Counted from the stretch's first letter, positions 13,214 through 30,863 are shown. The stretch is 64,000 bases of DNA from Aliarcobacter lanthieri (GCF_013201625.1 NZ_CP053839.1:248001-312000); one strand, 5' to 3'. The notes: generated by a model from the sequence alone, not told the origin. A program made the numbers and translations.

Positions 13214-13243
13214 AATAGTAGTAAATTTTATTTTATTACTATT
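13214..13243. terminator. Probable bidirectional terminator between murC and the dprA remnant
   Basis: Arms AATAGTAGTAA and TTATTACTATT pair over 11 bp with one G-U pair around a short T-rich loop. The hairpin sits between convergent murC and dprA and runs into the dprA 3' end. It is AT-rich, so moderate confidence. Confidence 0.45.
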
Positions 13244-13736
13244 CTTCCATTTTTTATCTCTATCTTTCCTAATAGTTCATATTCAAAAACTTTATCTCCA
13301 TATTTAAAAACAGCTTCATTATATAAAGGATTATTTTTACAATATTCTAAAAATTCATCTTTATTATTTTTCATAACTTGGGTTCCAAAGTTTGATACAA
13401 ACGCATCAATATCATAAATAGCTTTTGCTTTACTTTTTACTAAAAGTTGATTAGTTCCATCACTTTCTCCTAGTCTATGAGGTAAAACATAAATATCTTT
13501 ATTCATTTTAAGTGCATATTCTATACTTCTCATACTTCCTGATTTTAAATCTGCATAGGCAACTATCAAAATATCAGATAACGCAACTATGATTTCATTT
13601 CTAATAGCAAAATTTCTCGGTAATGATGGAGTATTTGGAGCAAATTGGCTTAAAACTAATCCTTGTTGTTCAATCTCCAAAATCATATTTTTATTTATTG
13701 CAGGATATCGAATATCAAGCCCTGTTCCACTAATCA
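13228..13736 (-). pseudogene. dprA: dprA 3' portion, separated from its start by a transposon
   Basis: This is the C-terminal two thirds of DprA, the RecA loader that protects incoming single strands during natural transformation. It holds SGTGLDIRYPAINKN, LPRNFAIRNEIIVALSD and GSMRSIEYALKMNKDIYVLP of the extended Rossmann fold, then a short C-terminal tail. The missing N-terminus lies at 36183-36452. Joining the two pieces with one AATCA copy gives a continuous 257-aa frame. An ATG arises at the transposon junction (13735-13737) but has no Shine-Dalgarno, so this fragment is probably not translated well. It is not a separate gene. Confidence 0.93.
13732..13736. repeat. Left target-site duplication AATCA
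   Basis: AATCA directly abuts the TGT end at 13737 and is repeated at 36183-36187 after the ACA end. Five-base duplications are characteristic of Tn7-like transposition. Confidence 0.93.
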
Positions 13737-13805: not shown

Positions 13806-13872
13806 AATAAATTTAAATATGGTCAAGAATTAACTTAAATATATTTATAAATACAAAAATAAACTTAAATAC
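13806..13872 (+). repeat. Left-end TnsB-site array (three copies)
   Basis: Three 15-bp copies of a motif close to AATAAAYTTAAATAY lie at 13806-13820 (AATAAATTTAAATAT), 13828-13842 (AATTAACTTAAATAT) and 13858-13872 (AATAAACTTAAATAC). They all face inward and are spaced 22 and 30 bp apart. The right end carries two copies in mirror orientation. Position and multiplicity match TnsB-binding sites of Tn7-like ends. The last copy lies only 30 bp before the tnsA start, so TnsB binding could also repress the operon. Confidence 0.8.
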
Positions 13873-13901
13873 ATTTATATCTTGAATAATTTAAAAAAGA
13901 G

Positions 13902-14572
13902 ATGTATAATGTTTACATGAGTGTTAGAAAAATTAAAAAAAGTTATATTTCATCGACTGGATATTTTAAGAGTTTTAAGAACGATAAACAAATTGCGTAT
14001 GAATCAATTCTTGAAAGAGATTTCTATATGACATTGGAATTTAATAGTAATGTTCTGAGCTATGAAGAGCAACCTTTAAGAATTTATTATGAATATAAGG
14101 ATGGAATTCGTTATAGATATACTCCTGATTGTTTGGTGACTTACCAGAATAATATACAAAAATATTTTGAAGTTAAATATTTAAGTGATATAAAAAAGGA
14201 ACTGAACTAAAAGAAAAACTTGACTTTTTGATTATATATTTCCCTAAGTACGTACATATAGAGTTAGAAGTAGTAACTAATGAAAATATTTATAATGGAA
14301 CTTTAGATAATTTAAAATTTTTATATAATTTTGCATACCTTAAAGAAGATAGAGAAAAGTTTTTATTTATAGAAAATACACTTAAAAAACTAAATGATGT
14401 TATTACTGTTGAGCAATTATTAGAAAAATTAGCTAATAACAAAAGAGAACAGTTACTTTATCTACCTTATGTATGGAATTATATATTTAATAACACACAT
14501 CTTATAAAGCTTTATGATAAATTAACCAATAAGACTGTAATTAAAATTGGAAGTGATATATGGGAAAAATAA
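13902..14572 (+). CDS. tnsA: TnsA endonuclease, split by a -1 frame change
   Basis: TnsA cuts the 5' ends of the transposon and so allows cut-and-paste rather than copy-in movement. Frame one (13902-14210, possible later start 13917) contains the restriction-like core: AYESILERDF (Glu 34/38), YTPDCL (Asp 76) and YFEVKYL (Glu 90, Lys 92). It stops four codons after an A_AAA_AAG heptamer at 14192-14198. A -1 slip there continues as GTELKEKLDFLIIYFP and reads to 14572, giving about 223 aa, a normal TnsA length. The second part corresponds to the TnsC-contacting C-terminal domain and overlaps the tnsB start by 13 bp. Whether the frame change is programmed, a mutation or a sequencing error cannot be decided here. 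Confidence 0.82.
14192..14198 (+). promoter_or_regulatory. Candidate -1 ribosomal frameshift slippery heptamer in tnsA
   Basis: A_AAA_AAG is in the correct phase (codons atA-AAA-AAG of frame zero). It is the same heptamer used by E. coli dnaX. The -1 product continues directly into the tnsA 3' frame, while the zero frame ends at TAA 14208-14210. Downstream pairing is weak (AAAAG with CTTTT), so any stimulator is unclear. Confidence 0.5.
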
Positions 14573-16431
14573 ATTTAAAACCAGGAACAATCATTAATTA
14601 CATGGGAGAACAATGGAGAATATTAAAAACAATAAATATTAAAAATCTAGAAATTCAAAATTTATTGTCTAATGAAATAGTAACTATTTTATTAGATGAT
14701 TTACAATCAAATAATATAAATAATCATAAAAGTAGACATATTGATAGTTATTCTACTGAAGAATGGGCAGAGGCATTAAGGAGAGAAGAAATTATTAAGG
14801 ATTTGGTTTTTGTAAGTAGAACAAAGTATGATGTTGAATTAGTAGCAAAAGAGCATGGATATAGCTATGTTACTTTATATAATTGGATTAAACTTTATGA
14901 AAAAACTGGAGAAATTAGTTCTCTTGTACCAGCAACTTCAAAAAGGGGGAAAAAAGGAAATAGGTTAGATTCAAGAGTTAATGAAATTATTAGTGATATT
15001 ATAGAAAATATTTATTTAAATAAACAAAGATATAGTTTCAATAGAGTATATAATAAGATTTATCTTGCTTGCAAACATGAAAGTCTAAAAATTCCACACA
15101 GAAATACTATTAGATATAGAATATCACAAATAGAACCTAAAAAAGTAATAAAACGAAGATATGGTTATAAAAGAGCAAAAGAAGAATTTGATAATGCTGA
15201 TGGGAAATTTCCTGAAGGGAAGTTCCCTTTTGATTTTATTCAAATAGATCATACACCATTGGATATAATATTAGTTGATAGTGTATATCGTAAAGCACTA
15301 GGAAGACCAATTTTAACAATGGCAATAGATGTTTATTCTCGAATGATCGTTGGTATATATGTATCTTTTCTTGGTCCAGCTTTTTATAATGTATCTCAGT
15401 GTATGTTCAGTATTTTTAATAAAAAAGATAATTTATTAAAAAAATATGGTGTTGAAGGAGAGTGGAATGCATATGGAATTCCACGTATAATTGGTGTAGA
15501 TAATGGTCCCGATTTAGTCTGTGAGGATATGCAAAGAGTATGCGATGAATATGGAATATCTCTTCAAAAAAGACCTGTTGCAAGACCTCAATTTGGACCA
15601 CATATAGAAAGAGCATTTAAAACTCATAATGAAAGTATTCATAATCTTCCAGGAACTACATTTGGAGATATTGTCGAAAAAGGTGACTACAATTCTAATA
15701 AAAATGCAACATATACAATAGAAGAATTTACAACTTGGTTATTGCAATATATTGTAAATATTTATCATAAAAAGTATCATAGTGAAATATTTATGACTCC
15801 TGAACAAAAATATCTAGAAGGGGTTATGGGTAATGATGAAAATCCAGGAGTTGGCTTAGCTCCCGTTTTAGATAATATTGATAATGTAAGAATATCTTTA
15901 TTACCGACTGAAATTAGAACAATACAAAAAGATGGAATAACAATAGATGGGGTAACATATTATTCTGATGTTTTAAGACATTGGATAGGAATAAAAGATG
16001 ATAAAAATAAAAGGGTGAATCATAAAATAAAAAGAGACCCTTTAAATATACAGATGATTTATTTTTATGATCCAGAATTAAAAGAATATTTTGAGATACC
16101 ATACAGAAAACTTTCAGCACCAGCAATGACTTTATGGGATTTATATGCAGTAAAAAAATATTTGAAAAATCAAAAAATTAAGAATTATAATGAAGATGAT
16201 ATTTTCAAAGCTTATGAAAAATTGTATGAAATTGAATCTGAAATTGAGAAAAAACACAAAACATATGTTAAAGATCAAAGAAAAAGAACAGTAAAAATAA
16301 AGGAAACAGTTGCAGAAAAAAGAGAAAAACTTTATGATAATTATACTGAAGTAAATCCTGAACATTTTGATGGATTATTTGAAAATATTGAAATTTTTGA
16401 TGTAAAAACAGATAAGAAAAAAAATGGCTAG
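14560..16431 (+). CDS. tnsB: TnsB/TniA-family DDE transposase
   Basis: This 623-aa integrase-fold transposase binds the end repeats and performs 3'-end cleavage and strand transfer. Helix-turn-helix segments lie near residues 85-130 (VAKEHGYSYVTLYNWIKLY). The catalytic core has Asp 230 (FIQIDHTPLD), Asp 314 (GVDNGPDL) and Glu 350 (FGPHIERAFK). A Mu-type C-terminal beta domain follows, then a charged coiled tail likely to contact TnsC. The start lies inside the tnsA 3' end, and its last 8 bp overlap tnsC. All key residues are intact. Confidence 0.95.
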   Translation: MGKINLKPGTIINYMGEQWRILKTINIKNLEIQNLLSNEIVTILLDDLQSNNINNHKSRHIDSYSTEEWAEALRREEIIKDLVFVSRTKYDVELVAKEHGYSYVTLYNWIKLYEKTGEISSLVPATSKRGKKGNRLDSRVNEIISDIIENIYLNKQRYSFNRVYNKIYLACKHESLKIPHRNTIRYRISQIEPKKVIKRRYGYKRAKEEFDNADGKFPEGKFPFDFIQIDHTPLDIILVDSVYRKALGRPILTMAIDVYSRMIVGIYVSFLGPAFYNVSQCMFSIFNKKDNLLKKYGVEGEWNAYGIPRIIGVDNGPDLVCEDMQRVCDEYGISLQKRPVARPQFGPHIERAFKTHNESIHNLPGTTFGDIVEKGDYNSNKNATYTIEEFTTWLLQYIVNIYHKKYHSEIFMTPEQKYLEGVMGNDENPGVGLAPVLDNIDNVRISLLPTEIRTIQKDGITIDGVTYYSDVLRHWIGIKDDKNKRVNHKIKRDPLNIQMIYFYDPELKEYFEIPYRKLSAPAMTLWDLYAVKKYLKNQKIKNYNEDDIFKAYEKLYEIESEIEKKHKTYVKDQRKRTVKIKETVAEKREKLYDNYTEVNPEHFDGLFENIEIFDVKTDKKKNG

Positions 16432-17359
16432 AATAACTTTAACAATAGAAGCTGAATCTTTTTTGACAGAAAATGATAATGAAAGAATAAAATATATTAC
16501 AAAAAAAAGATGGATAAATTATCCAAAGGCACAGGATATATTCAATATTTTAGAAGATTTAAAGAAATATGAAAAAGATAAAAGTAGAATTTCAAGTATT
16601 TTATTAGTTGGTGCATCAACTAATGGTAAAACATCTCTATTAGAAGAATTTATTAACAAATATCCTCCATATGATAACTTTGTAAAAACTGATCAAAACA
16701 TTTCAGAGGAATTTTTAAATGATTATTATACTATGGGTATACCAATTCTTTATATAATTGCTCCTTCTGAACCTAGTGAAACAAGGTTATATAGCCAAAT
16801 ATTACATACGCTTAGTGCACCATTTAATGAAAGTATGTCCCTTTCTAAAAAGCAATACTTAGTAGAGCATTATTTAAAGGTACTCCATGTGGAAATGTTA
16901 ATTATAGATGAAATACATAATGTATTAAGTGGATCTGTTTCAAGACAAAAACAAATAATGAATGCAATTAAAAATTTAAGTAATACACTTAAAATTCCAA
17001 TTGTATTATCTGGGATAAAAGATGCATTAAGAACTATTAGTACAGATTCACAAATTATGAGTAGATTTAGGCCAGTTTTTTTACCTAAATGGAAAATGGA
17101 TAAGGAATATGTTTCTTTAATATCAACTTTTATTGCATCTTTTCCGTTAAAACAAGAGAATATTATAACTCAAGAGTTAGCTCAAGAAATTTTAAATATC
17201 TCACAAGGTTACATAGGTGATATGGCAGATTTATTAAAAGAATCAGCTATTTATGCAATAAAAACTAAAAGTGAAAGGATAACATTATCTGAAATAAAGA
17301 ACTGCAGATTTAGATCTATGAATCAATCAGAAAAAGATAGTAAATTATTTAGAGAATGA
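16424..17359 (+). CDS. tnsC: TnsC/TniB-family AAA+ ATPase
   Basis: This 311-aa AAA+ regulator forms ATP-dependent filaments on target DNA and activates the transposase at sites chosen by a TniQ protein. Walker A is GASTNGKT (63-70), Walker B is MLIIDEIHNV (Asp 162, Glu 163), and a sensor-like LSGIKDALR follows. It is short, like TniB of Tn5053/Tn6022-type elements rather than the 555-aa TnsC of Tn7. It overlaps tnsB and tniQ by a few bases, so the operon is translationally coupled. Confidence 0.95.
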   Translation: MARITLTIEAESFLTENDNERIKYITKKRWINYPKAQDIFNILEDLKKYEKDKSRISSILLVGASTNGKTSLLEEFINKYPPYDNFVKTDQNISEEFLNDYYTMGIPILYIIAPSEPSETRLYSQILHTLSAPFNESMSLSKKQYLVEHYLKVLHVEMLIIDEIHNVLSGSVSRQKQIMNAIKNLSNTLKIPIVLSGIKDALRTISTDSQIMSRFRPVFLPKWKMDKEYVSLISTFIASFPLKQENIITQELAQEILNISQGYIGDMADLLKESAIYAIKTKSERITLSEIKNCRFRSMNQSEKDSKLFRE

Positions 17360-18489
17360 TTACTAAAAATTTAAAACCAGGAAATTTAAAAAACAAACTA
17401 TTTTTAATTATTTTAAAACCTCTTGAAGATGAAAGTTTTTTATCATGGTTTGCAAGAACATCATATATTCATTATACACATCCTCAAACATTTTTAAATA
17501 CTCATTTCGGATTAGAAAATAGAGATATATTAAAACGTGATTTAGATGTTGCATTAAGTGATAAATTTATAAAAATATTTACTAAAAAAACAAAAAATAA
17601 AGTTGATATTTTATCTTTAACATTAAAAAAATATACAGGGTATTTATATGAAGATGAAATAATGAATGCTAATAATAAAGTTTTTATTTCAAATATGAAA
17701 TTTTGCCCAATATGTCTCGGAAAAGACAATATCCCTTATTTTAGACAATATTGGAAATTCATTTTTATTACTACTTGTGTTAAACACAATTGTTATTTAT
17801 ATGATGCATGCCCTAAATGTAATAGTAAAATCTCCATTATTAAAATGTATCAAGATTCAAAAAGTTATATATATTGTCATAAATGTGGACTTGATTTAAG
17901 AAAATCAAAAAAACAAACTATAAAAGCAAATGTAATCTATGGAATTAAAGCTCAAGAAAAATTAATGTATATTTTAAAAAAAGGATATATTCGATTTAAA
18001 GATAAATGGTTATACCCTTTCGTATTTTTTATAACCATAATACAAATCACAAAATTAATATTTTTAAGAAAACATACATATTTTATAAACCAAAATCCGT
18101 TATTTAAGATGTTAAAAGATAAGTTAGCTGAACATATTAAACTATCACCACCAGTTTTTAATCGATTAAATGTTCAAGAACTTTTTTCTTTGTTTGGACT
18201 CATAGTATATATTTTTGATAATTATCCTAATAATTTTAGAAATTTTATGAAGAAAAATCAATTAACTTATTGGGATATGGTAAAAGAAATCAAATATTTA
18301 TCATTTTGGTATGACAATTTAGTTAATGATGTATCTCCTAGATATTTAGCATTTGGAGATATGATTACAAATGAAGAGATTGAAAATGCTAAAAAATATT
18401 TAAAAAAAAATGATATGGATATTATAAAAGCAAATTTACAAAGATTATTTGGTACTTATAGTTACTTTTTTAAATTAACAAGTTTATAA
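17356..18489 (+). CDS. tniQ: TniQ/TnsD-family target-selection protein
   Basis: This 377-aa protein starts with the TniQ motif PLEDESFLSWFART, followed by a zinc-binding module: FCPICLGKD (Cys 117, 120), Cys 141/His 144, CPKC (152, 155) and YCHKCG (174, 177). TniQ proteins connect TnsC to the chosen target, and longer TnsD members bind a specific DNA site. The C-terminal 190 residues could provide such binding, so this is the first candidate for recognising the dprA sequence. No CRISPR effector accompanies it. It is the last gene of the tnsABC-tniQ operon. Confidence 0.92.
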   Translation: MITKNLKPGNLKNKLFLIILKPLEDESFLSWFARTSYIHYTHPQTFLNTHFGLENRDILKRDLDVALSDKFIKIFTKKTKNKVDILSLTLKKYTGYLYEDEIMNANNKVFISNMKFCPICLGKDNIPYFRQYWKFIFITTCVKHNCYLYDACPKCNSKISIIKMYQDSKSYIYCHKCGLDLRKSKKQTIKANVIYGIKAQEKLMYILKKGYIRFKDKWLYPFVFFITIIQITKLIFLRKHTYFINQNPLFKMLKDKLAEHIKLSPPVFNRLNVQELFSLFGLIVYIFDNYPNNFRNFMKKNQLTYWDMVKEIKYLSFWYDNLVNDVSPRYLAFGDMITNEEIENAKKYLKKNDMDIIKANLQRLFGTYSYFFKLTSL

Positions 18490-18554: not shown

Positions 18555-19139
18555 CTAAAACCCTTTTATTCCTAAAGCATTTAAAGTATCAATTCCTAAA
18601 TAACTTTCACTTTTTATATTATGTATTTTTTTAAAACTATCTATAGCTTTTCTTGTAGAATCTCCAATAATACCATCTATTGGACCATTATATAATCCTT
18701 CTAATAATAAAACGGTTTGAACCTGTCTTACTATTTTTTCTCTTTTATCTTTATCAACAGTATTATCACTTTTTATTTCTGTAGATCTATTAGTAGTAGT
18801 TTGCTTTTTAATAGAGGTAGTATTGTCAATCAATTTAGGTGCTTGATATGGTGTGTATGTCGATGAGTTCTTACTTGTACCATATGAATAATTTGAATAT
18901 CCCCCACTTGAAGAAGATCTATGAGAGCTATGACTTCTATGAGAACTATGGCTTCTATGAGCAGCTAAAATATCTGAAACATGTGAATTTAAAATAGATG
19001 CTTTTTCTGTATTATTGTCTAAAGAATTCAACATAAAATTTGCATTTGATATATCATCAGTTATATTTGATTGATAAGAGGCTTGTGCACTAAAAGATAT
19101 TCCAAGTAATCCAGCTAAAGCTTTTAAATTTTGTTTCAT
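18555..19139 (-). CDS. hxsA: His-Xaa-Ser repeat peptide HxsA with peptidoglycan-binding domain
   Basis: This 194-aa protein has three parts. The first is an N-terminal signal-like hydrophobic stretch (residues 1-22, ending in an Ala-rich SAQAS). The second is a tract of tandem His-Arg-Ser / His-Ser-Ser units at about 61-76, followed by Ser/Gly/Tyr-rich sequence. The third is a C-terminal PG_binding_1-type domain (about 130-192, VQTVLLLEGLYNGPIDG and GDSTRKAIDSFKKIH). This is the layout of HxsA, the presumed substrate of the radical-SAM enzymes encoded upstream. It overlaps hxsC by 4 bp. The modification and function of the mature product are unknown. It faces tniQ convergently. Confidence 0.88.
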   Translation of the reverse strand: MKQNLKALAGLLGISFSAQASYQSNITDDISNANFMLNSLDNNTEKASILNSHVSDILAAHRSHSSHRSHSSHRSSSSGGYSNYSYGTSKNSSTYTPYQAPKLIDNTTSIKKQTTTNRSTEIKSDNTVDKDKREKIVRQVQTVLLLEGLYNGPIDGIIGDSTRKAIDSFKKIHNIKSESYLGIDTLNALGIKGF

Positions 19140-20239
19140 ATTATATTTACCTTTTCTATATATTTATCTGTTGCAGAAGTAAAAAACCCACAACAATCAT
19201 TTCTTCTACTACAAAATTTACAATCTTCTAAATAATAATTCTTCCAATCTGAAATAGATTTTATTGAAAAATCTCTTATTTCTTCAGATAATAAACATAA
19301 TGGATAATTATATAAAAATATTTTAAAATTATATAATCTAGCTTTATAGATAGCTCTTTCTATATATTTATTTTGTTCTTTAACTTTTAAATATAATTTA
19401 TCATAATTTTTTCTTGCATAACCTATTGGTTCTATATTCATTATAGAAATACTATTAATCATTTTAAAAGTAGAAAAAATATAATCTATGATATTTTCTA
19501 AATATTTAATATTTAACTTATTTGGAATAATTCTAATTTCAATATTTTGTCCAAATTCTAATAAATTAATTATCCCTTTTGTTGTTTTATTAAAAGAATT
19601 TTTACTGCCAACTATTGTATCATGAATTTTTGAATTAAATCCATATAGTGGAATAGCCCAAACTAAATCTCTTAAAGATTCTTTACAAATTTTCTTTGTA
19701 AACTCATAATCTTCAAATGATTTTCCATTAGTTAAAATATGCAAAGAGTTAGTATTCCCACTACAATTTAATTTATTTAAAAATTCATGAAATACTTCCT
19801 TATTATAAGTTGGTTCTCCACCTGAAATTCCAATAAATTTATTTGTTTCAAAATTTATAATTGCCTTATATGCTTCATCAAATAAATATTCATCATTTTT
19901 TGTTTTAGGGGGTTGGCAACAAAATAAACATTTGCTGTTACATCTTTCAGTAACTAAGATGGTATTTTCATTTGAAAAATTTGTTAAATAAGTAGATATT
20001 TTTTTATTGTTTTGATGAAAAATCAATATATCTCCATCAACAACATTTTCTCTTAGATTATCACTCGAAAATAGTATTTTCTCATCATTAAATTGTATAC
20101 TATATTGATTATTTCCAATATAAGATATTTCTGATAAATTATCATATGTTTGTATAGATTTTTTATTAAAAATAAACATACCGTTAATTAAATTATCAGA
20201 TTTATAATTAAATGTATCTATTCTTATTGGTTTTTCCAC
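19136..20239 (-). CDS. hxsC: Radical SAM maturase HxsC
   Basis: This 367-aa radical SAM protein has its iron-sulfur motif C-x3-C-x2-C at Cys 100, 104 and 107 (RCNSKCLFCCQPP). FIGISGGEPTYNKE supplies the GGEP SAM-contact motif. A Cys-rich C-terminus (DCKFCSRRNDCCGFF) probably binds a further cluster. With HxsB and HxsD it forms the recognised His-Xaa-Ser maturation set. It is expected to act on the repeat tract of HxsA in the cytoplasm before export. It overlaps hxsB by 16 bp and hxsA by 4 bp. Confidence 0.9.
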   Translation of the reverse strand: MEKPIRIDTFNYKSDNLINGMFIFNKKSIQTYDNLSEISYIGNNQYSIQFNDEKILFSSDNLRENVVDGDILIFHQNNKKISTYLTNFSNENTILVTERCNSKCLFCCQPPKTKNDEYLFDEAYKAIINFETNKFIGISGGEPTYNKEVFHEFLNKLNCSGNTNSLHILTNGKSFEDYEFTKKICKESLRDLVWAIPLYGFNSKIHDTIVGSKNSFNKTTKGIINLLEFGQNIEIRIIPNKLNIKYLENIIDYIFSTFKMINSISIMNIEPIGYARKNYDKLYLKVKEQNKYIERAIYKARLYNFKIFLYNYPLCLLSEEIRDFSIKSISDWKNYYLEDCKFCSRRNDCCGFFTSATDKYIEKVNII

Positions 20240-21630
20240 TTTAAATATATCTCCATAATATCTTTTCTATTAATTAATGAGTCAAATATATAATCAAAAA
20301 TCATAGTATGTAATTTACAAAAAAAAGAAATTGATTTATCACCTATTATATCTCCTTGAGTTGATAAATGATGAAAAACATCTACGCCACAATATTCTTT
20401 ATAGCTACAATCTTCACATCCTGGCATTGTTTCAATAAATGAATTACTCAATACAGTAATATTATTCTTATCTAAAAAATTATATTCTTTAGTAGTAATA
20501 TCACCCAATTCTAGTTCTTTAAATTTAGTCATTTTCCATAACATTCTTGCTTCATCAGAACCAAATATTTTTCCATCATAGTTAAATACTAATGCTCCCA
20601 TCATATATGAAGATGGAGATTGCAAATCTAAATAATTATTTTCAAAAGGAGAAAATATTTTTGATAAATAAATAAGTAAATTTTCTTCAATAAAAACTTT
20701 TTCTTTATTAATATCAAAAATATATTCTAAACAGTTTTTATAAAACTCAAAAAAATCTTCAGCAGAATAAATTTTATTATCATTAAATGCATATCCTAAA
20801 AACGTCAAAGGTCTTATAGAAATAGTTGTAAATTCATTATCTAAATAACCTTGAATAAATTTTTTATAATCTTTTAAAGTTTCTTTTGTAACAGTTGAGA
20901 GTGCACTTATATTATTTTTACCTAATATTTTCCTTGATTCTTTTAATTTAGCAGTAAATCTATCATAACTGTTATAGTATCTAGAAGGCCTATTAGAATT
21001 ATGTATATCTTTGTTACCATCCAAAGAAGTTGATAAAAAAATATTGTTATTCTTACAAAAATTTAAAATTTCATCATTTATATTATTCAAAGTACTACAA
21101 ATTACAAATGAAATATTTTTATTAGTAATTACTTCTTTTATTTTTTTGACAAAAGTTTCTATAAAATTAAAATTTAATAATGGTTCACCACCTTGAAACT
21201 CAATTTTAAAGCTTTTATCTGAAACAAGATTTATAACTTTTATAATTTCATCTATATATTTAATATCTAAATCATAACCTTGTTTATTTATATTTACTCT
21301 ACTTACTTGACAATAATTACAATCTAAATCACATCTTAATGTAGGAATTATTAAAAATAAACTTGGTTTATTTAAATTAGAGTAAATTTTTGTAGATAAA
21401 TTTGTCAAATATATATTTAATTTTATTTTATAATCTTTTTCAATATAGATAAAATTATTTGCTTCAAGGTTATTCAATAGCTTTTCTTCTAAATTTTCAT
21501 ATTTATGATAAATTAAATTTTTTAAATCATCTCTTGAATTGATAATTCCAAAGCTACCTGTACTATTAGTTAAAATATATTTTTGAGAAGGTAATTGTCT
21601 AAAATTAAATGGAAAATATTTATAATTCAC
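20224..21630 (-). CDS. hxsB: Radical SAM maturase HxsB (SPASM type)
   Basis: This 468-aa radical SAM enzyme has Cys 100, 104 and 107 in TLRCDLDCNYCQVSR, GGEP-type KIEFQGGEPLLNFN, and a C-terminal SPASM-like set (Cys 405, 408, 414 and 438: MPGCEDCSYKEYCG...FFCKLH) for auxiliary clusters. SPASM proteins commonly modify ribosomal peptides. The first 90 residues may form a peptide-recognition region. It overlaps hxsD by 11 bp, so hxsD-B-C-A is one minus-strand transcript. The whole unit has transposon-like AT content and is cargo. Confidence 0.9.
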   Translation of the reverse strand: MNYKYFPFNFRQLPSQKYILTNSTGSFGIINSRDDLKNLIYHKYENLEEKLLNNLEANNFIYIEKDYKIKLNIYLTNLSTKIYSNLNKPSLFLIIPTLRCDLDCNYCQVSRVNINKQGYDLDIKYIDEIIKVINLVSDKSFKIEFQGGEPLLNFNFIETFVKKIKEVITNKNISFVICSTLNNINDEILNFCKNNNIFLSTSLDGNKDIHNSNRPSRYYNSYDRFTAKLKESRKILGKNNISALSTVTKETLKDYKKFIQGYLDNEFTTISIRPLTFLGYAFNDNKIYSAEDFFEFYKNCLEYIFDINKEKVFIEENLLIYLSKIFSPFENNYLDLQSPSSYMMGALVFNYDGKIFGSDEARMLWKMTKFKELELGDITTKEYNFLDKNNITVLSNSFIETMPGCEDCSYKEYCGVDVFHHLSTQGDIIGDKSISFFCKLHTMIFDYIFDSLINRKDIMEIYLKWKNQ

Positions 21631-21895
21631 TATAAATCTTTTCTAAAGATTTTTTTATAATTTGCTCCCTTAAAAAAAGAGTATTTTTATCAATTTCATA
21701 TCTCAATAAATTGTCATTTAAATATCTATTAAAAATATTTTTATTTTTTTCTAAATTTTCATCGTTTATTATATAAATAATCCAATTCTCAATATCTTCT
21801 TCAAGCCTCCACTCGGTAAATCTTGAAAATTGATATAATGTTTTTCTAATTATTATTTCAGGGTAGTTATTTTTAAAAAAAGCCATTCTATACAT
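21620..21895 (-). CDS. hxsD: His-Xaa-Ser system protein HxsD
   Basis: This small 91-aa protein heads the hxs operon. The pattern KTLYQFSRFTEWRLE followed by FNRYLNDNLLRYEIDKNT and LREQIIKKSLEKIY fits HxsD, which is always found with hxsB and hxsC and is presumed to help deliver substrate or assemble the enzyme complex. No catalytic motif is visible. The identification rests on pattern and context. The promoter should lie in the AT-rich 21896-22139 gap shared with the divergent restriction gene. Confidence 0.82.
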   Translation of the reverse strand: MYRMAFFKNNYPEIIIRKTLYQFSRFTEWRLEEDIENWIIYIINDENLEKNKNIFNRYLNDNLLRYEIDKNTLFLREQIIKKSLEKIYSEL

Positions 21896-22139: not shown

Positions 22140-25007
22140 ATGAAAATAATAAATAAATTAGCAGTTATAACAGAACAGGAATCAATCAAATATTTAACTG
22201 ATTATTTTGTAAGTTATATAGAAGATATTAATATAAATGAGAAAAATGTTGATTCTTATGTTCATTCAATTCTAAAAAATAAATTATCTTATACTTCGAA
22301 AGAAGCAGAACTTGCAGTAACTAAACTTAGAAATAGTGAAATTAAAATTCCAAGTAAGACTAAACTAGCAAGCGGAACAGGTGAAATTGATTGTGGAATA
22401 TTTATAAATGATAAGTTAAAAATAATTATAGAAGATAAAGAACCCAAAGAATCAGTAGAACTTGCGTTAAGTGAAGCAATTATTTATGCAGATGGCTTAA
22501 ATTCAAAAGGTGAAGACATAAGGATAGTTATTGGATTTACAGGAATAGATATACTTTTGAGAGTATTAGACCATACATCTAATAGATGGGTTCCATTTTA
22601 TATTAATGGTCAAGAGTTAAAAGCATTTCCTGGAAAATATATTTTAAATATAATATATTCTCAAAAAGATATTCATGGATTTATAGTTGAGAATATTAAA
22701 GAAGATATAAATATTAGAGATATAATATACAGTTTAAAAAATATTTATCGGACTACTGATCTCCAAAATGATAATCAAAAAACTATTGACTTTACAATTG
22801 CTTTTATTGGTTTGAAATCAATACTAGAAAAATATAAAGACCAGGGTATTAGAGGTCTTAAAAATTGGAATAGCCTAAATAACAAAAATAATCCGAAAGA
22901 TAATAATTCAGAAGATGATGAAGACTTAAGAGATAATTTAACATCTACCATTGATAAAATATTTGAAAAAATGTTAACAAAGGATATTTCCGAAGACTAT
23001 ACAGATCTATTTATAATAAAAGATAGTGAAAATACAGAAACTTTCAATTTTAAAAGAACACTTGAAACATTTCAAACGGACTATCATTTATTAAGTCTAA
23101 GAAAAATTTATACTGAAATAACTAAATTGCATGATTTGCACGACTCAAAAATTGATCTATTTGGTGAAGTATATGAATCATTAGGAGAAAAAGATTTTAG
23201 GAAATCTTTTGGACAATTTTTTACAAGACGACATATTATTAAAACTTTAATAGAACTAATGGAAATAAATGCTTATGATTTTATTGGAGAATTATATGAA
23301 GGAGTAGAAAATAAACAAGTAGTATCTAAGCCAAAATCTCCTAAAAATATTTGCGATCCTGCTTGTGGTACAGGTGGTTTCCTAACAGAATTTTTTAAAT
23401 ATATTAAAGATGAAGCTCAAAAGCATAAAAACTATAAAACTATAGATTTATCAAAATTAGCTTCAAGCTCTTTCTATGGATACGATATATATACGGCAAA
23501 TGTTACGAGAACAAAGATCAATATGTATTTATCTGGAGATGGATTTTCAGAAATTAGAAAGGCAGATACTTTACAGGATAAAAATATAAATAACAATAAA
23601 TTTAATTATATAATTACAAATCCACCTTATGGGAAAGGAACATATACTGTAAATTATTCTTTTCAAGAAGGAACTGAAACTGTAATAAAGCCTGTAATAA
23701 ATAATCAAAGGTTAGAAGTCAATTTTCTTGTAAAAATAGTTGATATGTTATTACCAAAAGGAAGAGCTATGGCTATTATCCCTGATGGGATATTAGAAGC
23801 TACAACGTTATCACCATTAAGAGTTTGGTTGTTAAAATACTGTAAAATTGAAAAGATAGTAAGTCTTCCTAAACATGCTTTCGCACCATACACACATGAG
23901 AAAACATATGCAATATTCTTTGAAAAAAGATTGATTCCCTTGAAAGATATTAATCAAATAGAAAATGACCCTGATATTTGGAGTTATATTGTAGATAATG
24001 ACGGTTTCGCAAATTCTGATAAAAGATTTAGAACAGATAGAATGGATGAAAATGGTAAATATTTACATGACGAGTTTAGTCAGTGGAGAGGAATCGACGG
24101 AAGTACAAATGATTCTTTAATAATTGAAAGATATAAAAGAAAAACTCAATTAAAAGGTGAAGAATTTTACAACGAATGGGAGGAAAAAATTGAAGGATTA
24201 AAGTATGGGTATATCTCATTAAAAGAAATCTTAAAAGATGAATTTATTACTTATCAAACTGTATCTGTAGAAGAAGTTTTAAGAAGACTGAATAGAGAAG
24301 TTGAAGAGAAAATTAATATAGAAAAGATTATTGAAAATATTGATACTTTAAATGATGAAGAAATTAGAGCAAAAGAAAAAATATTTGAAATTCTACAAAA
24401 AGATCATGAACTAATATTTGATAGTAAAAAAGGAATTTTTAGAGATAATACGAAAACTATTGAACCAAAAGCTTTAACTGTTAAAGATATAGTTGAAATT
24501 GTAAATAACAATATACCTAGTAAAAATCTAAAAATCAAGCACCCAAAAGATCTAACAATAAATAAAGAGGGAAAGTATACTTTAAAGAAATGTTATGCAC
24601 AGATTTTAGAAATTGCTGGAATAAATTATAACTTTAACAATAAGAATCCTAAATACTGGCTAAAAATTGAAGAGAATTTTAAACCATTAACTTCAGTTCA
24701 ACAATCTACTAAAATTAAAAAAATTTTTCAAAAAATTTATTTATTAAACTCGATAGAAGACATTATTGATTTAGAAGAAAAAGAAATAAAAGAATCTTAC
24801 ATTGAACAAATTGAAAATTATGGTTTAGAATATGATTCTTTTAGGAGTAGTTTTATCGATAAATTAAATCCTATAATTAGAAAAACATTGATATGTACTC
24901 CAGAAAAATATTTTAGAGAAGCTAAAACACAATCTTTAATTCTTGAAGACTTTGAGAAAGAAAATAAAGAATTAATTTTAGAGATTAAAAAGTTATTTGG
25001 AGAATAG
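22140..25007 (+). CDS. Fused restriction-modification subunit (nuclease + N6-adenine methyltransferase)
   Basis: This 955-aa protein has a PD-(D/E)xK-like nuclease domain at the N-terminus (GTGEIDCGIF with Asp 84, then KIIIEDKEPKE with Glu 98 and Lys 100). Next comes a HsdM-type helical region ending in SFGQFFTRRHIIKTLIEL and the methyltransferase core (DPACGTGGF at 406-414, NPPYGKG at 494-500). A long helical C-terminus follows. Nuclease and methylase in one chain with a separate S protein is the BcgI (type IIB) architecture, though type I-related systems also vary this way. No HsdR helicase is present. The S gene follows after 1 bp. Confidence 0.85.
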   Translation: MKIINKLAVITEQESIKYLTDYFVSYIEDININEKNVDSYVHSILKNKLSYTSKEAELAVTKLRNSEIKIPSKTKLASGTGEIDCGIFINDKLKIIIEDKEPKESVELALSEAIIYADGLNSKGEDIRIVIGFTGIDILLRVLDHTSNRWVPFYINGQELKAFPGKYILNIIYSQKDIHGFIVENIKEDINIRDIIYSLKNIYRTTDLQNDNQKTIDFTIAFIGLKSILEKYKDQGIRGLKNWNSLNNKNNPKDNNSEDDEDLRDNLTSTIDKIFEKMLTKDISEDYTDLFIIKDSENTETFNFKRTLETFQTDYHLLSLRKIYTEITKLHDLHDSKIDLFGEVYESLGEKDFRKSFGQFFTRRHIIKTLIELMEINAYDFIGELYEGVENKQVVSKPKSPKNICDPACGTGGFLTEFFKYIKDEAQKHKNYKTIDLSKLASSSFYGYDIYTANVTRTKINMYLSGDGFSEIRKADTLQDKNINNNKFNYIITNPPYGKGTYTVNYSFQEGTETVIKPVINNQRLEVNFLVKIVDMLLPKGRAMAIIPDGILEATTLSPLRVWLLKYCKIEKIVSLPKHAFAPYTHEKTYAIFFEKRLIPLKDINQIENDPDIWSYIVDNDGFANSDKRFRTDRMDENGKYLHDEFSQWRGIDGSTNDSLIIERYKRKTQLKGEEFYNEWEEKIEGLKYGYISLKEILKDEFITYQTVSVEEVLRRLNREVEEKINIEKIIENIDTLNDEEIRAKEKIFEILQKDHELIFDSKKGIFRDNTKTIEPKALTVKDIVEIVNNNIPSKNLKIKHPKDLTINKEGKYTLKKCYAQILEIAGINYNFNNKNPKYWLKIEENFKPLTSVQQSTKIKKIFQKIYLLNSIEDIIDLEEKEIKESYIEQIENYGLEYDSFRSSFIDKLNPIIRKTLICTPEKYFREAKTQSLILEDFEKENKELILEIKKLFGE

Positions 25008-25008
25008 T

Positions 25009-26088
25009 ATGAAAGCTTTACTAAGTGAAATAGCTTATACAGTTAGAGGAGAGGTTATTTCAGAAGAAAATATTTATTATAATTATAATAAAAATGGAAT
25101 TCCTGTGTATTCATCGAATACAAAAAACCAAGGATTGATTGGAACTGTAAATATGTCATTTTACAATGACTCTAATGCAAAAGGAGAAGCAGGTGAAATA
25201 ACATGGACTACGGATGGTAATGCTGGTAATTTTATTTTAAGACATGAGCCTTTTCTTTTCACTAATGTATGTGGAAAAATTATAATAAAGAAGAAATATC
25301 AAAGAATTATTTCTCCTCAATGGTTGGCTTTATATCTTAATTTAGAATCTAAAAAATATGTTACTTCTAAAGGTGGAAATTCTAAATTAATGAAAGAACA
25401 AGTTGATAATATTGAAGTTAATATTATTAATATAAATTTACAAAACAAACTAGTTAAAGAATTTGATATAAGAATAAATAAACTTAATTTATTAATTAGT
25501 ATTCTAAAAAAACTTAATAATCAAATTAGTAAAAAAATTATTTCAAAAAGTAAAATCTTTTTAATGAAAGAACTATTTGATATTACATCTGGTCGTAGAA
25601 TTACACAAAATGATATATACAATAATTCTGGTGATTTTCCAGCTGTAACTTCTCAAACAAAGAATGAAGGTATAGCTTGGTATGGAGATAGAAAATGGCT
25701 TACAAGCATAGAAAAAAATTCAAAAAAAGTTTATGTTAGTAAGGAATGTTTAACCTGGACTAAAGATGGGGCTAAATGTGGAACTATATTTTATAGAGAT
25801 TATGAGTTTTATCCCAATGACCATTGTGGAGTTTTAATTCCAAAGTTTGAATTGAATTTGGAATGGGTAAGACAACAAATACAACCAATACTTTATAATC
25901 AGGTAATAGCAAAAGATGCTCAAGGTATGTTATATGAAGAACAAATGGCTAATATAGAAGTTTATATTCCAGTTGATGATAATGGTGAGATTGATTTAGC
26001 AATTCAAAATAAAATATATTCAGAGTATCATAAATTGATACAAATAAAAAAGAATTTAGAAAATATTTTAGAAAAGTACTCTATATAA
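25009..26088 (+). CDS. Restriction-modification specificity (S) subunit
   Basis: This 359-aa protein starts at the ATG at 25009, preceded by GGAG. The frame is also open from a TTG at 24997, inside the upstream gene. It holds two target-recognition domains: residues 1-130 (SEIAYTVRGEVISEENI...WTTDGNAGNFILR) and 185-310 (ELFDITSGRRITQNDI...WTKDGAKCGTIFYR). Each is followed by a helical spacer (LQNKLVKEFDIRINKL; IQNKIYSEYHKLIQIKKNL). These half-site readers would define a bipartite DNA target for the upstream fused subunit. Confidence 0.88.
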   Translation: MKALLSEIAYTVRGEVISEENIYYNYNKNGIPVYSSNTKNQGLIGTVNMSFYNDSNAKGEAGEITWTTDGNAGNFILRHEPFLFTNVCGKIIIKKKYQRIISPQWLALYLNLESKKYVTSKGGNSKLMKEQVDNIEVNIININLQNKLVKEFDIRINKLNLLISILKKLNNQISKKIISKSKIFLMKELFDITSGRRITQNDIYNNSGDFPAVTSQTKNEGIAWYGDRKWLTSIEKNSKKVYVSKECLTWTKDGAKCGTIFYRDYEFYPNDHCGVLIPKFELNLEWVRQQIQPILYNQVIAKDAQGMLYEEQMANIEVYIPVDDNGEIDLAIQNKIYSEYHKLIQIKKNLENILEKYSI

Positions 26089-26168
26089 TTCTTTATTATC
26101 ATGTATTAGAAAGAAATTTTAAGTTTAAAGTAAATTTAGGCATAATCGAATAAATTAATTAATAATGG

Positions 26169-26184
26169 ATAATAGGATATTATA
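26169..26184 (+). repeat. 16-bp element, copy 1, upstream of the two-TM protein
   Basis: ATAATAGGATATTATA ends 4 bp before the ATG at 26189. It is repeated perfectly in inverted orientation at 27723-27738, directly before the start of the methyltransferase gene. Each copy has a small internal dyad (TAATA-N3-TATTA) and an AGGA that can act as a Shine-Dalgarno sequence. Confidence 0.7.
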
Positions 26185-26188
26185 GTTT

Positions 26189-26938
26189 ATGAAAAAAACT
26201 GATTACTCTAAATGGTTTGACTATTCTTTTGGTCCAGTGATAGCTATCGTAGTGTTTTTATTTACGTATTGGCTCGATCCTTTGGGATATGGACCAAAGC
26301 AAGTTGCAACAGCTATACCTGCCTTTTTGTTTTCTATTATTATTTTGTTTATAGAGCATGGAAGAATTGTAAGTAAAGAAGCTAAGAAATCTTCTGATTT
26401 GTCTGATAGAGTTTATGATGCCGTAAAGAATTATTTGCATGTAATAAGAATTGGTTCACCTGAAAAAGCTATGGAATATATCAACACTAGAATTTCTACC
26501 CTTGGTGAAATAAAAAATACTTCATTTAACACGATTCAAGAAATTGAACGATCAAATGAAAAATTTTATTCAATGGAAGAGTATAATAAATTTCAAAAAG
26601 AAATAGCTAGATATATTGCTAAACCTTTATTGTGTAAGGAAATTGGAGATAAACATGCATTACAAAGATTTAGAAATACTTTTAACTTAACTAAAAAAAG
26701 TGATAAATATAAATATAGATTAATATCTCATTCAGAACCTCAAATAAATTTCATAATTTTAGAATATAAAGATGGTAAAAAAGAGGTCTTATTTAATTGG
26801 GATTTTAGAGGATTAGGACAAGACCCTATTGTGCTATTATCACGAGACGATAAGATAATAGAAATGTTTTATATTCATTTTAACAATTTGTGGGAAAGTG
26901 CTTCTCCTGACTACGATACAACTAGCGAGAAAGAATAG
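26189..26938 (+). CDS. Unknown two-transmembrane protein
   Basis: This 249-aa protein starts with two hydrophobic spans (about 14-31, FGPVIAIVVFLFTYWL, and 40-56, AIPAFLFSIIILFIEHG). A soluble C-terminal part of about 190 residues follows, with a helical segment and a beta-rich end (FIILEYKDGKKEVLFNWDF). The closing IEMFYIHFNNLWESASP resembles the tail of many bacterial signalling or PLD-like proteins, a weak clue. Such two-TM-plus-sensor layouts are common among defence effectors, but no catalytic motif is seen. It is convergent with, and overlaps by 17 bp, the methyltransferase gene that shares its upstream 16-bp element. Confidence 0.75.
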   Translation: MKKTDYSKWFDYSFGPVIAIVVFLFTYWLDPLGYGPKQVATAIPAFLFSIIILFIEHGRIVSKEAKKSSDLSDRVYDAVKNYLHVIRIGSPEKAMEYINTRISTLGEIKNTSFNTIQEIERSNEKFYSMEEYNKFQKEIARYIAKPLLCKEIGDKHALQRFRNTFNLTKKSDKYKYRLISHSEPQINFIILEYKDGKKEVLFNWDFRGLGQDPIVLLSRDDKIIEMFYIHFNNLWESASPDYDTTSEKE

Positions 26939-27722
26939 AAATTAAATCAACTTCATAAAAATATGATGAGTTATTTTCAATTAAATGCTTATTATACCAA
27001 TGCTTTAACTCTTTTGACATATTCTCATTTAGATAATTTATAGTCCATTTAATAGTATTGCTATAGTATTTATAAAAATCTTGAGGATATGGAGAATTTC
27101 TTTTAAAAAGTTCAAAATTTATTTCTTTATGCTCAAAAGTTGAATTTTCAATCCCTTCAAAAACCCTATCTAAATCATAATGTTTAAAAGATTGACTATA
27201 ATTTACAGAATTAAAAAGTACATTTTCAATATTTATTCTTAATTCATGACTCATAGGACCAAATCTGATTGCCGCACCATCATATTGTCTTATAACTAAT
27301 TTGCCATTTTGAGATAATTTATCTTTTATACCATCTATAAAACATGAAGGGGATCTCATATATGAAAAAACATTAAATGCCAAGTATAAATCAGCTTCTG
27401 GTAAATCTTGAATATTCATAAAATCACTTTCAATATAAGTGACTTTTTTATTCCATTTAGCAGATCTTTTTTGGGCTTCTTCAAGTGCAAGTTTATCTGA
27501 ATCAATACCAATAAGTTCACAATCAAAATCAATTGTGTTATTTATTAATTCTAACCATAAACCCGTACCACAACCAATATCAACAATTCTATTTGGTTTA
27601 AAATTAGAGAAAAGATTTTTAATAAAATTAGTTCTTTCTGGCAATTTTGCAATATGATGCTCATATAACCAATCCGATGAACTTAGTGGTTGTCCTGATA
27701 AATTATTCCATTTCTTTTGCAA
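26922..27722 (-). CDS. Class I SAM-dependent methyltransferase of unknown substrate
   Basis: This 266-aa protein starts at a TTG (27722) with AGGA just upstream. Motif I is RIVDIGCGTGLWLEL, and the acidic end of beta 2 is ELIGIDSDKLALEEA. ADLYLAFNVFSYM stands at motif IV, and GKLVIRQYDG at post-motif. No DNA-methylase NPPY is present, so a small-molecule, tRNA or protein target is likely. It shares an identical upstream 16-bp element with the convergent membrane-protein gene, suggesting joint regulation or a two-gene cassette. Confidence 0.82.
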   Translation of the reverse strand: MQKKWNNLSGQPLSSSDWLYEHHIAKLPERTNFIKNLFSNFKPNRIVDIGCGTGLWLELINNTIDFDCELIGIDSDKLALEEAQKRSAKWNKKVTYIESDFMNIQDLPEADLYLAFNVFSYMRSPSCFIDGIKDKLSQNGKLVIRQYDGAAIRFGPMSHELRINIENVLFNSVNYSQSFKHYDLDRVFEGIENSTFEHKEINFELFKRNSPYPQDFYKYYSNTIKWTINYLNENMSKELKHWYNKHLIENNSSYFYEVDLISILSR

Positions 27723-27738
27723 TATAATATCCTATTAT
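27723..27738 (-). repeat. 16-bp element, copy 2, upstream of the methyltransferase
   Basis: This is a perfect inverted copy of 26169-26184. It also forms a hairpin with a third partial copy, TAATAGGATATT at 27752-27763 (12-bp arms, 14-nt loop). That hairpin lies just beyond the end of the recombinase gene and may serve as its terminator. Confidence 0.7.
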
Positions 27739-27768
27739 TATATATTTATTTTAATAGGATATTTTCTG

Positions 27769-28707
27769 TTAAGAGAGAAACTGAAAGTTTCTTCTTGGAT
27801 GTTTTGTTGATAAAAGTTTTCTTTGTTGCTTCATATTTACTTGAGTATAAATTTGAGTTGTAGAAATTGATGCATGACCTAGCATTCCTTGAATATATCT
27901 AATGTCAACGCCTTCTTCAAGAAGCATAGTTGCAAAACTGTGTCGAAACATATGTGGAGTTAAATGTTGTTGTATATTTGCTTTTGTTTGATATTTTTTT
28001 ATCATATTTGCAATAGAATATTCTGTAAATTTATTACTTAATCTATTGATAAAAAACCACTCTTTTTTAAGTATCTCATCTTTAAATAGTGATAAGTATT
28101 CTTTTAAGGCTATTTTAACTTCTTGATCACAAATTTGAATAGTTCTTTCTTTCCCACCTTTACCTAAAACTTTTATGTTTCCAGTACTTAAATTAATATC
28201 GTGATATTTGATATTACTTACTTCTGATACTCTAAGTCCTGTTGCAAATAATAGTTCCAATATGGCAATATCTCTTGTCAGTGCTTTATATGAATATTTT
28301 TCTATCTTGTTAAAGTCTGATTTTATTTTATAAACATATTTAAAAAGCTTTCTTATATTTTGAATTTCAATTATTTTTGGTAGTATTTTATGCTCTTTTA
28401 TTGAAATTCTCATTTTTCTAAATGGGCTTATAGTAATAATTTCTTCAAATTCAAGATGGGTAAAAAAAGCTTTTAATGTGGCTAATTTTCTTTTAATTGA
28501 TTTTGGTTTTAGTTCTAAAGTATATAAATGCTGAATATATTCTTTCAATATATCTTTATCAACTTCATTAATACACATAGATTGAATATCTTTAAATGTT
28601 TTAAATTGCTCTATATCCATAGTATAAGCAACAATTGTTTTTGGATTTAGATTTTTCTCAAATTTGCAATGAAATAAAAAATCTTGTAGTAACTTGTCTA
28701 TTTTCAT
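27769..28707 (-). CDS. Tyrosine recombinase (XerC/D-like)
   Basis: This 312-aa site-specific recombinase has an N-terminal SAM-like core-binding domain (LLQDFLFHCKFEKNLNPKTI). The catalytic domain contains LLFATGLRVSEVSNIKY (first Arg), a Lys in KVLGKGGKERTI, HMFRHSFAT (His-x-x-Arg), LGHASISTTQIYTQ (His and nucleophile Tyr). All catalytic residues are present. As transposon cargo it may be a passenger integrase of a nested element, or resolve dimers. AT-rich inverted repeat 28773-28803 upstream could be its site or simply a composition effect. Confidence 0.9.
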   Translation of the reverse strand: MKIDKLLQDFLFHCKFEKNLNPKTIVAYTMDIEQFKTFKDIQSMCINEVDKDILKEYIQHLYTLELKPKSIKRKLATLKAFFTHLEFEEIITISPFRKMRISIKEHKILPKIIEIQNIRKLFKYVYKIKSDFNKIEKYSYKALTRDIAILELLFATGLRVSEVSNIKYHDINLSTGNIKVLGKGGKERTIQICDQEVKIALKEYLSLFKDEILKKEWFFINRLSNKFTEYSIANMIKKYQTKANIQQHLTPHMFRHSFATMLLEEGVDIRYIQGMLGHASISTTQIYTQVNMKQQRKLLSTKHPRRNFQFLS

Positions 28708-29582: not shown

Positions 29583-30863
29583 TTATTTTCTCTCAGCTAT
29601 ACTAACACAATTTTTTATAATACAATTAATCACTGATTGTAACTTATCAACAGAATAAGATCCATTAAGAATTGTTTTTCTTGTTTGTTTAAAAAATTCT
29701 TTTTGATAAGATTCTTTATACTCTAGAACACCATGATATGTTTTTATTTTTTCTTTATAATTAGTCCAAATTATTTTTGGAGAAGGATAGTTTTTGACAT
29801 TTAAATCAAGATAACATTCAATTGCTGCAGCACGACCATTAATATTTGCGGAAAATAATCCTTCTGGACCTTGAGTTTGAAAATTATTAAACTCTTCTAA
29901 GTCAGGTAATACAATAACTTGCATATTTGAAGGTATATTTAAAGAATTAACTTTATTAAATGCTTCAATACCTTCTGCATCATTATCAAATACAAATAAT
30001 ATGTTATTTAGAGTATCAATTTTTATAAGTCCTTCTGCAAATTTTACTAAACTTCCAGTACCCGAAAAAGGGTGTCTTTCTGTTACGTCAATAAAGTAAA
30101 AAAAATCTTCTATTTCTGGTTTTAATATTGAAAAAGCATGTTTTAGAATATGTACATCTGAACTTCCTTCTGTAGCAATTAAAAAACGATGTTCACGTTT
30201 TACATTTGCCTTAAAATCTTCTTCTTTTGCCCATCCTGCTTCTACTAAAGGACCATATTGCCATATAACTTTTTCAGATAAGTTTGAAGAACATTCAGCA
30301 AGTATACGTAGAAGAGAATAAGGATGAAGAAAAGAAATTAGACCCTCAAAGTAATTTAACTCTGAATATGCATCTTTTTCAATAAAATCTTCATATGGTA
30401 AACATTTTATAGTTGGGATATATTCAAATCTTTTTCTAATTTTTTTTATATCATTATAATCATAAGATGTATATGTATTATCTAAATTTTTAATTGGATA
30501 CTTCTTAATAAATAAACAAAATTCATCAAAGCTCATAACATTTAATTTTCGACCTTCTTCTTCAAGAAACTGGTATTCTTCTTTCCAATTTTTTACTAAG
30601 TCATTATATTCTTTTTTTATAGATTTTAAAGTAAACCCTAAAAGTTCTAATCTAGGGACAATAGTTTTTAGTTCTATAGAAAATGCCATTTCTATAGAAG
30701 TTAGATTTTGATTTTGTTCTTTATCGTAGTCGTAATTAATATAATCTGATTTTACAGGTATTCTGTTTTCTTCTTGGAAAATTACACCATGGTCTATGCC
30801 CATTGAATTTTTACTCCAACTAACTGATAATTCACCTATGTTTAAAGATATTTCTGTTCCCAT
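29583..30863 (-). CDS. HEPN/Toprim-type probable defence protein
   Basis: This 426-aa protein has an N-terminal domain (about 1-215) with the MGTEISLNIGELSVSWSKN start typical of the HEPN/Toprim N-terminal family. A Toprim-like nuclease fold follows: the Glu motif LIATEGSSDVHIL (Glu 232) and the acidic LFVFDNDAEG (Asp 293, 295, Glu 297). Proteins of this type occur in bacterial conflict loci and are presumed metal-dependent nucleases. It is divergent from gajA with 85 bp between them, so a shared promoter region is likely. Whether it works with Gabija or independently is unknown. Confidence 0.75.
   Translation of the reverse strand: MGTEISLNIGELSVSWSKNSMGIDHGVIFQEENRIPVKSDYINYDYDKEQNQNLTSIEMAFSIELKTIVPRLELLGFTLKSIKKEYNDLVKNWKEEYQFLEEEGRKLNVMSFDEFCLFIKKYPIKNLDNTYTSYDYNDIKKIRKRFEYIPTIKCLPYEDFIEKDAYSELNYFEGLISFLHPYSLLRILAECSSNLSEKVIWQYGPLVEAGWAKEEDFKANVKREHRFLIATEGSSDVHILKHAFSILKPEIEDFFYFIDVTERHPFSGTGSLVKFAEGLIKIDTLNNILFVFDNDAEGIEAFNKVNSLNIPSNMQVIVLPDLEEFNNFQTQGPEGLFSANINGRAAAIECYLDLNVKNYPSPKIIWTNYKEKIKTYHGVLEYKESYQKEFFKQTRKTILNGSYSVDKLQSVINCIIKNCVSIAERK

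Follow-up and report, generated by a model that had tools for sequence, protein, structure and literature searches.

A His-Xaa-Ser (Hxs) peptide-maturation locus carried by a Tn7-like transposon that interrupts dprA in Aliarcobacter lanthieri, and its association with defence genes

In Aliarcobacter lanthieri, a complete hxsD-hxsB-hxsC-hxsA gene set, encoding the His-Xaa-Ser (Hxs) peptide-maturation system, was identified from open reading frame (ORF) calls and NCBIfam profiles on the minus strand at positions 18555-21895 of a 64,000-nucleotide stretch of DNA (NZ_CP053839.1:248001-312000), which as a whole is called here the window. This locus is accessory cargo of a Tn7-like transposon inserted in dprA. 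In other genomes, defence genes adjoin hxs loci much more frequently than they adjoin genes drawn at random from those genomes, which suggests, and does not prove, a role of Hxs in defence. The HxsABCD system itself is already known, being credited to Haft and Basu in PMC9062424 (NCBIfam TIGR03976-03979), and the new elements, as far as the literature searched shows, are its transposon setting, the measured excess of defence genes and a slot 3' of hxsA that receives different genes. The four genes of the window are as follows.

21620 to 21895, minus strand: hxsD, small partner protein of 91 residues (TIGR03976, 50.1 bits, cut-off 50; AlphaFold2 predicted local distance difference test, pLDDT, 96)
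20224 to 21630, minus strand: hxsB, GTG start, radical S-adenosylmethionine (SAM)/SPASM maturase of 468 residues (TIGR03978, 464 bits, cut-off 370)
19136 to 20239, minus strand: hxsC, GTG start, second radical SAM maturase, 367 residues (TIGR03977, 329.2 bits, cut-off 267.9; PF04055)
18555 to 19139, minus strand: hxsA, substrate of 194 residues (TIGR03979, 138.7 bits, cut-off 121.65; PF01471, E 1.4e-7)

All four proteins score above the curated NCBIfam cut-offs, and because neighbouring genes overlap by 11 bp (hxsD/hxsB), 16 bp (hxsB/hxsC) and 4 bp (hxsC/hxsA), the cluster reads as one putative operon. It is a single, adjacent and co-directional cluster that includes the HxS repeat protein, and it shares with the HxsABCD system the same four components, the gene overlap, the HxS tract and the two radical SAM enzymes, with no structural difference. 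The CX3CX2C radical SAM motif is complete in both HxsB and HxsC (CNSKCLFC in the latter), and in HxsB the cysteines C100/C104/C107 (in 57 relatives) and C405/C408/C414 are invariant. HxsA consists of a signal-like N-terminus, MKQNLKALAGLLGISFSAQA, an HRS/HSS tract, HRSHSSHRSHSSHRS, with five HxS units in AAHRSHSSHRSHSSHRSS, and a C-terminal PG_binding_1 domain found with Pfam. The tract is not a product of chance, since a reading frame with HxS repeats lies near hxsB in 98 of 101 related loci. The overlapping gene set, both radical SAM motifs and the tract joined to a peptidoglycan-binding domain had all been read in an initial annotation made from the DNA alone, and the ORFs and the NCBIfam and Pfam profiles agree with it. 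The genes hxsA and tniQ are convergent with 66 bp between them; a promoter scan gave sites not above those of shuffled sequences (52 vs 43.4, standard deviation 5.8), and no terminator-like site.

The hxs genes have a GC content of 21.6% and a third-position GC content (GC3) resembling that of host genes, and the window HxsB falls in an 18-row clade of D-B-C-A loci (support 100/97), its closest relatives being two gammaproteobacterial proteins at 40% identity. A recent arrival from a gammaproteobacterium was therefore rejected; either hxs was transferred longer ago or its donor has not been sampled.

The carrier transposon and the gene that it interrupts comprise the following features.

13737 to 36182, no strand assigned: Tn7-like transposon carrying hxs, 22,446 bp, with 30-bp repeats at 13824-13883
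13732 to 13736, no strand assigned: left copy of the 5-bp target-site duplication AATCA
36183 to 36187, no strand assigned: right copy of AATCA
13902 to 14210, plus strand: tnsA, first part (PF08722, E 2e-11); the frame shifts near 14200, and relatives read tnsA in one frame
14228 to 14572, plus strand: tnsA, second part, in another frame (tblastn to relatives)
14560 to 16431, plus strand: tnsB, transposase (PF09299, PF00665)
16424 to 17359, plus strand: tnsC/TniB, AAA ATPase (PF05621, E 4e-60)
17356 to 18489, plus strand: tniQ, target selector (PF06527, E 9e-20)
13228 to 13736, minus strand: 3' part of dprA (TIGR00732)
36183 to 36452, minus strand: 5' part of dprA, about 90 codons

The left end of the element is TGTAATTTACAATAA at 13737 and the right end, read inward, is TGTCATTTACAATAA at 36182; it has the TGT..ACA ends of Tn7-like transposons, together with repeated binding sites, the 5-bp target duplication and genes for TnsA, TnsB, TnsC/TniB and TniQ at 13902-18489, tnsA being frame-split. 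When the flanks are joined with a single AATCA, an intact DprA of 257 residues is restored, and therefore the carrier interrupted dprA after about codon 90. These ends, the duplication and the restored empty site bear out the proposal of the initial annotation that hxs is transposon cargo. The frame break of tnsA (14188-14208) coincides with the sequence A AAA AAG, which is a classic slippery heptamer for -1 frameshifting and has a stop after it; in the -1 frame the gene regains the length found in relatives. The split reflects programmed frameshifting or else a change of one base in the homopolymer.

The same element carries a Gabija defence system, which supports the earlier statement that hxs lies amid defence genes, though at a distance of about 9 kb from hxsD.

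30949 to 34694, plus strand: gajA (685 residues) and gajB (565 residues), PADLOC E 9e-300 and 8e-220

Here a full-length OLD-type GajA stands beside a UvrD-type GajB, the former covering 685 of the 687 positions of its profile and the latter 564 of 565. For the association elsewhere, five genes next to hxs in each of 28 genomes were compared with five genes taken, on the same contig, from a 15-kb stretch chosen at random (139 genes in each set), the loci being those nearest to seven HxsB queries rather than a random sample. Near hxs, 84 PADLOC families matched at E<=1e-15 vs 26 in the control, a comparison that rests on system names and best E-values and in which several helicase families may match one protein. 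The best matches near hxs were PDC-S28 (E 0), DpdF (1e-234), GajB (6e-234) and PDC-S02 (4e-125), followed by AbiLi (7e-102) and ZorB2 (3e-95), with PDC-S18, PDC-S51, PDC-S20, AbiEi, PsyrT, SngC and MkoC all below 1e-64; about ten system names fell under 1e-60, and none in the control fell below 2.5e-57. The best control matches were SspA (2.5e-57), DndA (5e-55) and a general UvrD helicase (4e-34), and the control matches are probably housekeeping relatives.

In loci of D-B-C-A order, the next co-directional gene after hxsA is repeatedly a defence gene, namely GajA-GajB in L117 (GajA 750 bits) and, by similarity and clustering, in L125 and L129, QatA in L109 (836 bits), in L045 a PDC-S28 helicase with Lamassu genes after it, and a NACHT protein in L116, and in L053, L054, L056, L119 and L140 this place is taken by DUF6119 proteins. 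In cases unrelated to one another, the defence genes start 20-70 bp past the end of hxsA and are read in its direction. In Enterobacterales, near-identical hxsDBCA sets are followed by differing 3' genes (Gabija, QatABCD, DUF6119, insertion sequence (IS) or prophage genes), and among 20 such loci, pairs that differ downstream stay homologous through hxsA; the homology ends no more than a few bases from the hxsA stop codon, or about 80 bp past it in a few comparisons such as L143 vs L042/L142. An Escherichia coli query spanning hxsA and the DUF6119 gene found 154 genomes and, among the matches listed, the partial ones end at the end of hxsA. Another kind of neighbour is a nuclease gene of the SNase-like or Endonuclease_NS type, present in 11 hxs loci and in none of the control stretches; these loci span Nostoc, Methylococcaceae, Planctomycetota, Melainabacteria, Bacteroidota, an alphaproteobacterium, a gammaproteobacterium and a viral contig. 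Such a non-specific nuclease stands beside hxs in about six lineages, in some loci directly 3' of hxsC, and several of these proteins have a signal-like start (seen directly in L040 and L061).

Strictly chromosomal hxs loci elsewhere, with no link to mobile or defence genes, were the outcome that the initial annotation had named as fatal to its proposal; this is not what was found, given the PADLOC excess and the following mobile contexts. By tblastn, HxsB relatives occur in 415 plasmid records (318 from Klebsiella) and also in a Leptospira phage, and the hxs scans yielded 80 loci in genomes and 16 in viral contigs. Of 5,426 E. coli genomes, 154 match, always in the chromosome, where hxs lies in mobilizable islands at the ssrA site with a relaxase, three recombinases and ABC-three-component genes, in a P2-type prophage, in a tRNA-Thr island and in other contexts. 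HxsA itself exists in a short form of about 80-110 residues, its gene being mostly ahead of hxsD, and in a long form with a peptidoglycan-binding or other C-terminal domain, which in Pseudomonadota goes with the D-B-C-A order.

Within the genus, a TnsB relative is present in 12 of 31 genomes. In two of them, G198 (TnsB 60% identical; L161/L162) and G336 (50%; L163/L164), the element is also inserted in dprA, at about codon 57 vs 90 in the window, and no hxs was found in either dprA element, so that hxs was rejected as standard cargo of this transposon family. Across the order, 2 of 299 genomes (the window genome and one other) pass the curated HxsB cut-off used for this count, the 276 of 299 obtained with a loose E-value having been discarded as general radical SAM cross-matching; none of 12 relatives within the genus passes it. 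Because neither dprA relative has hxs and only these two genomes pass, hxs is facultative, horizontally spread cargo. Counting the window, dprA is broken by Tn7-like elements of this group in three species of the genus, the insertions falling at two different codons, and natural transformation is expected to be lost.

As for the chemistry, the AlphaFold2 model of HxsB (pLDDT 93) has the fold of SPASM maturases of ribosomally synthesised and post-translationally modified peptides (RiPPs) such as CteB and ChlB, its nearest solved folds being CteB (5wgg), anSME (4k38) and ChlB (9gm3), in agreement with the sequence search. Three-residue cyclophane-forming enzymes (3-CyFEs) join residues i and i+2, with the His C2 as donor in HaaB and YhhB and the Ser C-beta as acceptor in MscB (PMC11002830), and the window likewise combines a SPASM radical SAM enzyme with an i/i+2 motif in its substrate. 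The secondary profile matches of HxsB include cyclophane formers, YhhB (67.8 of 445 bits) and GrrM/OscB (44.4 of 310 bits), and by these scores HxsB does not belong to a characterised 3-CyFE subfamily; it is a family of its own that may work like a three-residue cyclophane former without being filed as one. Over 98 HxsA proteins, 596 HxS units were tallied, each H-x-S by construction, with HSS, HRS and HAS the commonest, and since the HxS spacing fits the i/i+2 geometry, the product is best guessed to be a three-residue ring that joins His and Ser. The predicted fold of HxsD is beta-alpha-beta-beta plus a 43-residue helix, without a PDB match at E<=0.001; it was rejected as a PqqD-like RiPP recognition element because this is not a winged helix of three strands followed by three helices. 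HxsB has an additional N-terminal region of about 85 residues, and this could act as the recognition element. Most likely, then, HxsB and HxsC would act on HxsA, with HxsD as partner, so that every HxS unit has its His(i) cross-linked to its Ser(i+2) and a chain of three-residue rings results; HxsC may run a second reaction or share the tract. HxsA would be exported and kept at the peptidoglycan through its C-terminal domain, and the mature protein most likely would complement intracellular systems such as Gabija.

Our preferred reading, which we hold as possible though still tentative, is that hxs cargo adds an envelope-level layer, acting against phage or incoming DNA through exported HxsA and its His-Ser rings, to a mobile defence island. 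Where the initial annotation suggested competition or phage protection at the cell envelope, its transposon cargo and its mobile and defence linkage elsewhere have held up, and the envelope location is plausible only, from the signal-like start and the peptidoglycan-binding domain of HxsA; protection from phage, or killing of competitors, by Hxs itself is conjectural. Several facts weigh against this reading. In the window, Gabija lies 9 kb from hxsD, it is the convergent tniQ that stands 3' of hxsA, the element carries no exported nuclease, and HxsD scores at the very edge of its cut-off. Gabija-like genes occur in the absence of hxs in the related elements of dprA, many hxs loci (those of the short HxsA type and most of those in Pseudomonas) have no obvious defence neighbour, and linkage to defence genes is also expected of any passenger of mobile islands. 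Going further, Hxs might be the conserved core of a modular envelope defence system, in which cross-linked HxsA forms a barrier or docking platform at the wall and the slot 3' of hxsA (of hxsC in short-HxsA types) takes interchangeable Gabija, Qat, DUF6119 or exported-nuclease effectors, an extension that we regard as unlikely.

Somewhat doubtful, but to be kept in mind, is that hxs is a passenger with another job, the modified, His-rich and exported HxsA binding metal or carrying a redox centre for stress, metal or electron transfer functions and being collected by mobile islands: His at every third residue is a natural array of metal ligands, a MauG-type di-haem peroxidase, of a class that makes protein-derived redox cofactors, follows hxsDBCA in L046, L102 and L120, and on the Klebsiella plasmids hxs adjoins resistance genes and IS elements, not defence genes. 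This alone, however, leaves the excess of defence matches and the repeated nuclease neighbours unexplained, and no metal transporter or sensor family recurs among the hxs neighbours. Pure hitch-hiking in recombination hot spots, with no functional tie to the defence genes, agrees with the prophage and plasmid contexts and with an excess of tyrosine recombinases within 20 kb that is only modest (among the matches listed, 7 of 31 loci vs 1.3 expected, P about 4e-4, or vs 2.4 when every match is counted in the expectation, P about 0.01); yet the close, co-directional placement of defence genes past hxsA in unrelated cases, and a 3' border that keeps its place at the stop codon of hxsA through different replacements, make it rather unlikely. 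We consider it quite improbable that HxsA, or its tract, serves in released or displayed form to attack neighbours in the manner of a bacteriocin: radical SAM/SPASM enzymes do produce antibacterial peptides such as darobactin (PMC9055067), and 59 of 98 HxsA have signal-like N-termini by a crude test, but the surroundings of hxs show no recurrent gene for an export ABC transporter, a leader peptidase or immunity, and the peptidoglycan-binding or PEGA-like C-terminus suggests a retained protein.

Compared with known systems, the window resembles the triceptides (PMC11002830) in the SPASM radical SAM fold and in a three-residue motif that is repeated and has an aromatic residue at position i and, at i+2, a C-beta donor; for these two positions His and Ser are each known, though from separate enzymes. 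It differs in having a long exported substrate with a peptidoglycan-binding domain instead of a short cleaved peptide, in the second radical SAM enzyme and HxsD, and in its product being putative. With the Tn7-like transposons that carry defence cargo (PMC8649781), it shares TnsABC and TniQ, terminal repeats, the 5-bp duplication and a cargo of Gabija and restriction genes, whereas insertion inside dprA sets it apart and hxs cargo is absent from the text of that survey. Tn6022 and other comM-targeting elements (PMC10293859) likewise insert recurrently into a DNA-transformation gene, but here the target is dprA and the selector is TniQ, not a tyrosine-recombinase-like TnsF. The texts of these two Tn7 surveys do not mention dprA, and its interruption in three species adds a second transformation gene, besides comM, to the recurrent targets of these elements. 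In the literature searched, we found no description of hxs on a Tn7-like element in dprA (12 other genomes of the genus are without hxs), and the papers on HxsA-D were on genomes and enzymology, none on function. If our preferred reading is true, radical SAM protein modification at the envelope would join bacterial immunity, and the prediction of a modified, wall-bound protein that travels with anti-phage genes, often in line with them, makes the role of Hxs a testable question.

Besides the defence genes, other genes recur 3' of the hxs genes. DUF6119/TIGR04141 "sporadically distributed" proteins are encoded directly 3' of hxsA in many loci of E. coli and relatives (for example L141, 15473-17116, and L144, 15426-17033), and nothing informative on DUF6119/TIGR04141 was found in the literature. 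Genes for class I methyltransferases lie directly or almost directly 3' of hxsC in L060, L061, L072, L079, L084 and L090, which represent several phyla. The MauG-type peroxidase gene (PF03150) is accompanied by one for a small membrane protein (L046, 6057-8867; L102, 12428-15740; L120, 12494-14677), in clusters whose genes overlap or abut, and it may provide a further maturation step.

The remaining cargo of the carrier is listed below.

22140 to 26088, plus strand: N6 DNA methylase (955 residues) and type I specificity subunit (PF02384, PF01420)
26922 to 27722, minus strand: class I SAM methyltransferase (PF13847)
27769 to 28707, minus strand: tyrosine recombinase (PF00589, E 3e-42)
29583 to 30863, minus strand: HEPN/Toprim protein (PF18871, E 5e-58)
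34832 to 36097, minus strand: 421-residue protein at the right end (no Pfam match; distant relatives in sister elements, 27-29% identity by tblastn)

At 22140-26938, the methylase and the specificity subunit occur without a recognisable restriction subunit, and a neighbouring protein of 249 residues has no Pfam match. A second element of G198, outside dprA (L165, G198:C1:1402000-1421000), shares the cargo of window positions 22140-28707, the methylase and specificity genes being 97% identical and the recombinase 93%. With near-identical cargo in another Tn7-like element of another species, cargo therefore moves between elements, and the exchange between the window element and L165 is recent.

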